A stretch of 64,000 nucleotides of DNA from Woeseiaceae bacterium (lineage in GTDB: Bacteria; Pseudomonadota; Gammaproteobacteria; Steroidobacterales; Woeseiaceae). This document shows positions 24,881-61,334 of the stretch, one piece after another. Location: contig JAJFKT010000030.1 of assembly GCA_021773075.1 (NCBI GenBank), positions 62,001 through 126,000 on the forward strand, given 5' to 3'. Position 1 is the stretch's first letter; each line of letters begins with the position of its first letter. Made by a program: the position numbers and the translations under genes. Below the pieces are notes generated by a model. It was not told the origin of the DNA. It worked only from the letters and a program-made list of their open reading frames with translations, and did not search any database.

Positions 24881-25486
24881 ATGACGACAGACGCACTGGA
24901 TTTTGCGGTATCTTGCACACCTGAATCGACGGGAGTACGGGCGCTGCAAAAGGAACGGCAAATAGACAAGTTTCTGGCGGAGGTTGAGCGGCGCGCCCTA
25001 CGTATCGCCGAAATCGGTGTGCGCGACCGGGATGAAGCGCTTGACCTGGTGCAGGATGCGATGATCAAGTTGGTACGTAACTACAGTGGTCGCGGCAGTG
25101 ACGAGTGGCCACCGCTTTTTTACCGAATTCTGCAAAACGGCGTACGTGACTGGCATCGACGTCAGGCGGTTAGAAACCGCGTTATGGTCTGGTTTCAGAA
25201 GGCGAAACCCGAAGACAGCGACTATGATGTTATAGCGGCCGCGCCCGACCCTATCGGCCGTTCGCCGGATGAGGAAGTGCAGAACAGCGAGGCGATGCAG
25301 GACATGGAAATTGCTGTACACGAATTGCCGGCCCGACAACGGGAGGCGTTCATGCTGAGGACATTCGAGGGTCTCAACGTTGCTGGGACCGCGGTGGCAA
25401 TGGGCTGCAGCGAGGGTAGCGTCAAGACACACTATTCGCGTGCGGTACATGCGTTGCGCGAAAAGTTGGGAGAACATTGGCAATGA
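24881..25486 (+). CDS. ECF/sigma-70 family RNA polymerase sigma factor
   Basis: RDEALDLVQDAMIKLVRNY; ELPARQREAFMLRTFEGLNVAGTAVAMGCSEGSVKTHYSRA. Confidence 0.93.
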   Translation: MTTDALDFAVSCTPESTGVRALQKERQIDKFLAEVERRALRIAEIGVRDRDEALDLVQDAMIKLVRNYSGRGSDEWPPLFYRILQNGVRDWHRRQAVRNRVMVWFQKAKPEDSDYDVIAAAPDPIGRSPDEEVQNSEAMQDMEIAVHELPARQREAFMLRTFEGLNVAGTAVAMGCSEGSVKTHYSRAVHALREKLGEHWQ

Positions 25487-58690: not shown

Positions 58691-59554
58691 CTAAATCGCC
58701 ATTGCGTTGCGAAGCTTCTTAATGGCGTTGACTTCAAGTTGGCGAATACGTTCTGCCGAAATGCTGTATTCAGCGGCAAGCTCGTGCAGCGTCATCTTGT
58801 CGTCAGTGAGCCAGCGTTCTTCGAGAATACGGCGGCTGCGATCGTCAAGAATGTTCAATGCCGCGTGCATGCGTGTCGTCGCATCTTCGTTGAAGTCTGC
58901 CTTCTCGACCTGTTTTGCTGGATCAGCATCCGGGCTGGGAAGGTACGCGGCTGGCGTGAAGTTACGTTCATCATCCATGTCCGGCGTTGGGTCGAATATC
59001 GCGTCGCGAGAATGCAGTCGTTTCTCCATCTCGGTGACTTCAGCCGGTTTTACGCCGAGGTCTTTTGCGACCGCTTTGGTTTCGGCATCGGTCAGCCAGG
59101 CCAGCGTTTTCTTCTTCTTTCGCAGATTGAAGAAAAGCTTGCGTTGTGCTTTTGTGGTCGCGACCTTGACGATGCGCCAGTTCTTAAGCACAAACTCATG
59201 TATTTCGGCACGAATCCAGTGCACGGCAAATGAGACCAGTCGGACTCCGTAGTCCGGGTCAAAGCGCTTGACGGCCTTCATGAGTCCGACGTTGCCTTCC
59301 TGGATCAGGTCGTTAAGTGGCAGTCCATAGCCGGTGTAGCCCTTGGCAATATGTACAACGAATCTGAGGTGGGCCATAACCAAATCGCGAGCGGCATCCA
59401 GATCTTCGTCCGCGATCAGACGTCGCGCGAGTGCCTGCTCATCTTCTTTGCTGAGAACAGAAATGCCGCCGACAGCCTGGATATAGCCATCAAGGCTACC
59501 TACCGGTCCTGCCAGTACTAGGTCGTGGTTCGATTTCAGAACAGCGGTTGTCAT
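58691..59554 (-). CDS. rpoH: RNA polymerase heat-shock sigma factor sigma-32
   Basis: DLIQEGNVGLMKAVKRFDPDYGVRLVSFAVHWIRAEIHEFVL; region 4 EYSISAERIRQLEVNAIKKLR. Confidence 0.96.
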   Translation of the reverse strand: MTTAVLKSNHDLVLAGPVGSLDGYIQAVGGISVLSKEDEQALARRLIADEDLDAARDLVMAHLRFVVHIAKGYTGYGLPLNDLIQEGNVGLMKAVKRFDPDYGVRLVSFAVHWIRAEIHEFVLKNWRIVKVATTKAQRKLFFNLRKKKKTLAWLTDAETKAVAKDLGVKPAEVTEMEKRLHSRDAIFDPTPDMDDERNFTPAAYLPSPDADPAKQVEKADFNEDATTRMHAALNILDDRSRRILEERWLTDDKMTLHELAAEYSISAERIRQLEVNAIKKLRNAMAI

Positions 59555-59582
59555 GTAATACCTCCGTTTGTGGCTGACAATT

Positions 59583-59609
59583 TTAGCACTCGGGAGGTTA
59601 GAGTGCTAA
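59583..59609. promoter_or_regulatory. CIRCE element (HrcA operator) upstream of rpoH
   Basis: TTAGCACTC-GGGAGGTTA-GAGTGCTAA: both arms match the CIRCE consensus at 9/9 with an N9 spacer. Confidence 0.93.
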
Positions 59610-59706
59610 CAGCGCGCATTAGTTCCGTTGAACAAAAAGAGCTATTTCTATATAAAACAGCAATATAGGAGAATTTTGTTCATGCGTTATGTTTAATGGA
59701 ATTCGC

Positions 59707-60672
59707 TTATTTAGGCTCAATTCGACGCATATGACGCGCTGCCGTTACCCAGGAGGCCAACAAGCCAAGCAGGACGGCGGCCGCGAGCAACGCAGTGCTT
59801 TCAGTGAATCCCATCGTAGTGACAGTGATATTGCCCTGATACAAGCCAGCCAGGCGAGAAACCGGCCCCTCCAGCAAAAACAGCCCGTACTGGATCAACA
59901 GTAGAGCGAAGCTGCCACCGAACAGCCCATACCAGAAGCCGGTCCATAGGAACGGACGGCGTACAAAAGCATTGCTGGCACCGATAAGTTTGGTGACCTC
60001 GATTTCCTCGCGACGGTTCTCGATGTCGAGCCGAATCGTATTTCCAATGATAACAACGATAGCAATACTCAGGAGCGCGGCTCCGATAGCGATTGCCTGT
60101 CGCACGATATCCAGGATGGCATGGAAGCGTTGCACCCACGCAGTATCAACCTGCACGAGCTCGGTTTCCGGCAGACCGCTAAGGTCTTCGTGCAAGAGGC
60201 TTGTTATCGCACTCGTATTACCCGCACTTGGGCGCACAACAAGTGCGTGCGGCAAAGGATTTTTCCCCAGTTGGTCGAGCGCTACACCAAATCCGGATTG
60301 CGCCTTGAACTCCTGCAGCGCGGCGTCCGCTGTGACCAGCTCGACCGACTCAATATCAGCGCGCTGCCCAATTGCGCGCGCAAGGCCTTCAGCCTCGCTA
60401 ACGGTGAGTTCCGGCTTTAGATAAACCGAGAAGTCGAGCGCATTATCCCAACTGCCGCTGACCGACTGCGCGTTCTTTACGACGACGTTTATCGCCGCCG
60501 GAAGTGCCAACGTGACGCCGATAACGAGGATAATCATCAAGCTTGCGAACGGCTGTCGGACCAAACGCCCCAGCGAGCCAAGAGACGTACTCGCATGTTG
60601 CGTCAGCCAAATAGAAAAGGCCCCCGATGAGCGAACCGGGGCAACCGCATCAGCGTTTCGCGTTACTGCCAT
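59707..60672 (-). CDS. ftsX: cell division protein FtsX
   Basis: Four TM; VVIGNTIRLDIENRREEIEVTKLIGASNAFVRRPFLW. Confidence 0.95.
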   Translation of the reverse strand: MAVTRNADAVAPVRSSGAFSIWLTQHASTSLGSLGRLVRQPFASLMIILVIGVTLALPAAINVVVKNAQSVSGSWDNALDFSVYLKPELTVSEAEGLARAIGQRADIESVELVTADAALQEFKAQSGFGVALDQLGKNPLPHALVVRPSAGNTSAITSLLHEDLSGLPETELVQVDTAWVQRFHAILDIVRQAIAIGAALLSIAIVVIIGNTIRLDIENRREEIEVTKLIGASNAFVRRPFLWTGFWYGLFGGSFALLLIQYGLFLLEGPVSRLAGLYQGNITVTTMGFTESTALLAAAVLLGLLASWVTAARHMRRIEPK

Positions 60673-61334
60673 GGATCCGCCTCCTGTAGAAGCCGACCTT
60701 CTTCCAGCGCAATGCGTCGGCAACCCAGTCGATCGATCAGTGAAATGTCGTGACTCGCGATCAGCAATGTCACACCGACCTCATTAAAGCGCCGAAAAAT
60801 ACGCATAACTTCAAGCGAGAGATCGGGGTCGAGGTTTCCCGTGGGCTCATCCGCGATCAATAATTTTGGTCGAGTAACGATTGCGCGGGCAATACCGACC
60901 CGCTGCTGTTCACCGGCCGACAGCGTTTGTGGACTTCGTTTTTCCTTGTGCAGCAAGCTCACCTGATCGAGCGCGGCTCGTACCCGGCGCCCGGCATCGC
61001 GATGACTGACGCCAGCAATAATCAGAGGCAAAGCCACGTTGTCAAAGACCGTCCTGTCGGACAAGAGCTTATGATCCTGAAACACCATGCCGATCTGGCG
61101 GCGATAGGCAGGGATTTTGCGCCTTTTTACGCGCTGTGTATTTTGATTATCGACCAGAACCTGTCCGCCGCTTGGCCGTTCAATGAGGGCGATCAACCGC
61201 AGCAGGGTGCTCTTACCCGCACCTGAGTGGCCAGTTACGAATACCATCTCGCCTTTCTCGATATGAAGGCTGAGGCCGGATAGCGCCTCCTGTCCGCCGG
61301 GATATCGTTTGCTGAGATTTTCGAGCCGGATCAT
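60663..61334 (-). CDS. ftsE: cell division ATP-binding protein FtsE
   Basis: GHSGAGKST, LSAGEQQRVGIARAIV, LLIADEPTGNLD. Confidence 0.97.
   Translation of the reverse strand: MIRLENLSKRYPGGQEALSGLSLHIEKGEMVFVTGHSGAGKSTLLRLIALIERPSGGQVLVDNQNTQRVKRRKIPAYRRQIGMVFQDHKLLSDRTVFDNVALPLIIAGVSHRDAGRRVRAALDQVSLLHKEKRSPQTLSAGEQQRVGIARAIVTRPKLLIADEPTGNLDPDLSLEVMRIFRRFNEVGVTLLIASHDISLIDRLGCRRIALEEGRLLQEADPWQ

Follow-up and report, generated by a model that had tools for sequence, protein, structure and literature searches.

Bacterial heat shock is commonly presented as a pair of parallel systems, one in which a sigma factor activates the response, as in E. coli, and one in which a repressor releases it, as in Bacillus. 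The activity of the repressor HrcA depends on GroEL and is lost on heating, as established in other bacteria. In the textbook scheme of Escherichia and Pseudomonas, a sigmaE promoter drives rpoH without HrcA, and much of the control is exerted after transcription. The dependence of the rpoH P3 promoter on sigmaE/AlgU is established in both E. coli and Pseudomonas aeruginosa (PMC13104619). A CIRCE element, the operator of HrcA, was predicted before rpoH in the deltaproteobacterium Geobacter sulfurreducens (Rodionov et al., 2004; PMC545781), and this is the only earlier prediction of an rpoH CIRCE that we found in the literature searched. Here we analyze a Woeseiaceae rpoH locus at which a perfect CIRCE coincides with predicted promoter elements of two sigma factors.

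A CIRCE element upstream of rpoH

The window, that is, the whole 64-kb stretch of DNA that was analyzed, carries rpoH and its upstream neighbors in the following arrangement:

58691–59554, minus strand: rpoH, RNA polymerase sigma-32 factor (TIGR02392, above cut-off)
59561–59565, minus strand: GGAGG, ribosome-binding site of rpoH (from the sequence)
59583–59609, minus strand: CIRCE, predicted HrcA operator, a perfect 9-9-9 inverted repeat (consensus match, conservation in order and class)
59707–60723, minus strand: ftsX, the upstream neighbor, start uncertain (TIGR00439)
60663–61334, minus strand: ftsE (TIGR02673)

Curated models confirmed the identities of RpoH, FtsX and FtsE, the rpoH product scoring 394 bits against NCBIfam TIGR02392 (cut-off 323). 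The nearest named relatives of this RpoH, at 92–93% identity, come from Woeseiaceae metagenome assemblies and from unclassified gammaproteobacterial or proteobacterial ones. CIRCE is placed in the intergenic region between ftsX and rpoH, both of which lie on the minus strand. Elsewhere in the window, an ECF-type sigma factor is encoded at 24983–25468 (plus strand).

The sequence at 59583–59609, TTAGCACTCGGGAGGTTAGAGTGCTAA, has no mismatch to the 9-9-9 CIRCE consensus TTAGCACTC-N9-GAGTGCTAA, and reads TTAGCACTC-TAACCTCCC-GAGTGCTAA on the rpoH strand. The initial annotation had called this exact match and had placed it upstream of the GGAGG, 29 bp from the rpoH ATG. The consensus and the upstream position hold, and GGAGG (59561–59565) does lie between CIRCE and the ATG (59554), but the distance from the end of the element to that ATG measures 28 nt. 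Scanning the window with up to three mismatches returned this site as the sole match, with a chance expectation of 0.01 estimated from shuffles. The genome-wide scan proposed in the initial annotation was run at the same threshold and returned exactly two CIRCE in 4.09 Mb, both perfect, one at rpoH and the other at groESL, 66–67 bp before groES.

An HrcA operator presupposes a repressor, and a single full-length hrcA was found in the genome (TIGR00331, 330.6 bits, cut-off 197.2; Pfam PF01628, E = 9e-64), with a grpE-like gene downstream. Its product shares about 70% identity with HrcA from two genomes of the same genus and less with all others compared. Judged by its sequence, hrcA is native to the lineage. 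Contamination, put at 6.96% by the assembly estimate, was considered as a source of hrcA and ruled out, since the same-genus HrcA proteins are closest and GC content is similar. No CIRCE was found before hrcA in the source genome or at the 10 other order-level hrcA loci examined; among class-level hrcA loci, CIRCE precedes the gene in 21 of 30. With none before hrcA, groESL and rpoH make up the HrcA regulon that is visible in this genome. The order-level hrcA upstream regions share short recurring blocks, CTTGACC in some and ATTG-TAGC in most (loci L003 and L305–L314).

We further investigated conservation upstream of rpoH in relatives, whose absence would have spoken against the operator. For the order, 110 rpoH loci were fetched, 89 of them distinct. 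CIRCE with at most two mismatches is present in 87 of the 89, perfectly in 78, and the two other loci have intact arms separated by a spacer of 8 or 10 nt. CIRCE positions relative to the rpoH start codon concentrate at -54/-55 across the order while the flanks have largely diverged, and nearly all of the 147 order genomes sampled contain about two CIRCE. For the class, we sampled about one genome per family, compiled the regions upstream of rpoH, matched them to hrcA presence and allowed up to three mismatches. In genomes with hrcA, 85 of 92 rpoH genes have CIRCE upstream and 7 lack it, versus 9 of 37 with CIRCE where no hrcA was detected (Fisher 2.5e-14, with no phylogenetic correction; related genomes are not independent observations). 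Some assemblies behind these nine genes are incomplete and five are rated 97–99% complete; recent loss of hrcA, a missed gene or another binding protein are possible explanations. The nine loci are L145, L150, L163, L202, L207, L315, L322, L331 and L341. The repeat is kept across the genus, the family, the order and much of the class, and the layout is common to most hrcA-bearing gammaproteobacterial families sampled. Operator letters, hrcA in the genome, a promoter-region position at a heat-shock gene and co-occurrence with hrcA together mark the site as part of a predicted HrcA/CIRCE regulon.

Predicted promoter elements under and beside CIRCE

When class-level sites were aligned on CIRCE, three further conserved features emerged, all of them asymmetric, which places them outside the symmetric operator. 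Motif matching and promoter scanning point to these putative elements in the source genome:

59621–59626, minus strand: sigmaE-type -35 element GGAACT, its first G at 59626 (motif match, comparative position)
59598–59602, minus strand: sigmaE-type -10 element TCTAA, across the left CIRCE arm and the spacer (motif match, spacer conservation)
59604–59609, minus strand: sigma70-like -35 hexamer TTAGCA, in the left part of CIRCE (promoter scan)
59580–59588, minus strand: extended sigma70 -10 element TGCTAAAAT, formed by the right CIRCE arm and AAT (promoter scan, conservation)

GGAACT lies about 12 bp upstream of CIRCE. Of the 87 distinct order-level rpoH sites, 81 have the GAAC core at -16/-15 relative to CIRCE. 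Among class-level rpoH sites, 51 of 67 have it between -16 and -14, and most place it at -15, equivalent to a gap of 18 to the TCT. At the same fixed distance, GAAC is present in 0 of 19 groESL CIRCE and 1 of 21 hrcA CIRCE (Fisher 3.9e-15 against the rpoH sites). The spacer of rpoH CIRCE mostly starts with TAA, CAA or TCA, which yields TCTAA or TCTCA, a sigmaE-type -10 element, and TAA or CAA opens it in 75 of 87 order-level sites. The gap between GAAC and TCT is 19 in the source genome, 18–19 in relatives and 18 at rpoE.

The rpoE gene itself offers a check on this assignment. The RpoE model matches the genome 18 times, and one match exceeds the curated cut-off (C37). GAAC-N18-TCT occurs upstream of rpoE in all 29 family genomes with enough upstream sequence, at -70 to -84, and other gaps gave no comparable signal upstream of rpoE in these 29 genomes, so the sigmaE of the family probably reads the rpoH motif too. 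A scan of the whole source genome for GGAACT-N16/18-TCTRA returned no excess over the reversed control. The sigmaE call therefore rests on comparative position and not on enrichment, and we claim no sigmaE regulon. A sigmaE-type rpoH promoter is indicated by the spacing of GGAACT and TCTAA, their likeness to the rpoE autopromoter, the presence of rpoE and the loss of the motif where rpoE is missing (see below).

TTAGCA-18-TAAAAT with a TG is the only sigma70-like promoter that the scan recovered in the intergenic region, and TGCTAAAAT agrees with 9 of the 12 consensus positions of the sigma70 extended -10 element. A sigma32-like promoter before rpoH was sought in the window and not found. The third base of the left CIRCE arm is often G (TTGGCA) and the mirror position is rarely altered (26 versus 2), an asymmetry that points to a strand-specific role, with hrcA-type CIRCE varying similarly in their left arm.

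Two lineages appear to lack a regulator, the first rpoE and the second hrcA, and offer natural knock-outs for separate tests of each part. Genus g5, from the same family (G096, G517, G520 and others), has reduced genomes of 1.1–2.0 Mb in which no RpoE match was found. All six g5 rpoH genes that were read keep CIRCE, with one mismatch, as well as TGCTAAAAT, and GGAAC is gone from every one. In family f12, from the same order, hrcA is absent from all nine genomes. So is CIRCE at rpoH (9/9), and the genome-wide search produced only one weak match with two mismatches. The f12 rpoH genes nonetheless keep TGnTAAAAT in 9/9, as TGGTAAAAT or TGATAAAAT at -34. The sigmaE motif is missing in these nine genomes, and each has a sigma32-like promoter, CTTGAAA-N12/14-CCCC, upstream of rpoH (9/9; L296–L304), as if sigma32 autoregulation had taken the place of HrcA control.

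We consider it unlikely that HrcA binds at rpoH over just one real promoter, for example the sigmaE one, with TGCTAAAAT arising by chance from the CIRCE arm and the conserved AAT. It is true that the sigma70 -35 hexamer TTAGCA is weak and lies fully inside the operator, whose own constraint would suffice to keep it, and that 12 of 21 hrcA CIRCE share a T at the same downstream position. However, this T is the third base after CIRCE in all 87 order-level rpoH sites and in none of 19 groESL CIRCE, which are not followed by AAT, and the class-level alignment shows no conserved mirror-image ATT on the opposite side of CIRCE. The AAT also stays in g5, where no sigmaE motif is left, and TGnTAAAAT outlives the loss of CIRCE in all nine f12 genomes.

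That CIRCE at rpoH is a relic, or the site of another regulator, with no HrcA control of rpoH in vivo, seems very improbable to us. The nine CIRCE-bearing rpoH genes in genomes without detected hrcA would fit such a reading, but the element is near-perfect in 89 distinct sequences despite widely diverged flanks, groESL carries the identical consensus, and the hrcA-less f12 genomes have lost it wholly from rpoH. Hardly credible is an rpoH mRNA stem-loop (RNA thermometer or stability element) in place of a DNA operator: the palindrome does sit between the promoter region and the ribosome site, and certain other heat-shock operons do have CIRCE in their leader, but both predicted starts fall at or beyond the right arm, giving transcripts without the full repeat, the arms hold the exact CIRCE letters with no co-variation, presence of the repeat tracks hrcA, and an Rfam search of the region gave no match.

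Predicted control of rpoH and comparison with known systems

It is highly probable, in our judgment, that the locus is a composite switch, in which HrcA would repress overlapping sigmaE and sigma70 promoters of rpoH until stress relieves the repression. This reading draws on CIRCE and its conservation, on hrcA and rpoE in the genome, on the positions of the motifs and on their separate losses in lineages that lack one regulator. HrcA gating of sigma32 synthesis is the best reading of the comparative sequence data, from which we infer HrcA binding, repression and heat derepression, sigma usage and GroEL feedback at rpoH.

Under the composite switch, rpoH would be transcribed from two overlapping promoters, one read by sigmaE (RpoE) through GGAACT/TCTAA and the other by the housekeeping sigma70 through TTAGCA-N18-TAAAAT preceded by TG, with CIRCE overlying the predicted sigmaE -10 element and nearly all of the predicted sigma70 promoter. 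In unstressed cells, GroEL would keep HrcA active, and HrcA on CIRCE would shut RNA polymerase out of both promoters. Titration of GroEL by unfolded protein, or inactivation of HrcA by heat, would derepress rpoH and groESL jointly, raising groESL directly and the rest of the heat-shock regulon via sigma32. Envelope stress would contribute sigmaE-driven rpoH transcription, only with HrcA off the DNA. Sigma32 would then turn on its regulon, and GroEL would restore HrcA.

The initial annotation had proposed that HrcA controls rpoH. Our analysis supports that proposal and extends it with the overlap between operator and predicted promoters, an hrcA gene devoid of CIRCE and a wide distribution. The annotation had left open how far the arrangement reaches beyond well-studied species; the layout is widespread, and a prior prediction was made in Geobacter in 2004 (PMC545781). 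With a predicted repressor operator on the promoters of a sigma-factor gene and sigmaE in addition, three stress inputs would converge within about 45 bp. Since most hrcA-bearing families sampled have this layout, it is possibly ancestral, and E. coli would then be a derived case. We see the balance as even for a more specific scenario, in which the HrcA-gated sigmaE/sigma70 dual promoter would be the ancestral gammaproteobacterial control of sigma32, the Escherichia/Pseudomonas scheme would be what remained after hrcA loss, and lineages that lost hrcA as f12 did would have substituted a sigma32-like promoter.

No report uniting an rpoH CIRCE with a sigmaE promoter was found in a literature search that excluded the beta/gamma survey of Permina and Gelfand (2003). 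The operator and the type of target are known, and the composite architecture, widely conserved, appears undescribed.

The rpoH site shares its operator letters and spacing with the classical HrcA regulon (groESL and hrcA-grpE-dnaK), of which the groESL CIRCE is present in the same genome. In the order, the groESL element lies downstream of a CTTGAAA...CTATTA promoter and lacks GGAAC, a TAA spacer and a trailing AAT, whereas at rpoH CIRCE is superimposed on the predicted -10 elements. Geobacter sulfurreducens likewise has a perfect TTAGCACTC-N9-GAGTGCTAA, at -51 from rpoH, together with hrcA and a groESL CIRCE in its genome (PMC545781). Its hrcA-grpE-dnaK operon carries CIRCE, unlike that of the Woeseiaceae genome (PMC545781). 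That report concerned one species and did not dissect the promoter, while the layout here is a predicted sigmaE/sigma70 composite that extends across gammaproteobacterial families (PMC545781). The rpoH P3 promoter of E. coli and P. aeruginosa is likewise of the GAACT...TCT type, and sigma70 promoters also lie before rpoH there (PMC13104619). The P. aeruginosa scheme given in that review includes no HrcA step, in contrast to the Woeseiaceae locus, where a predicted HrcA operator sits on the promoter (PMC13104619).
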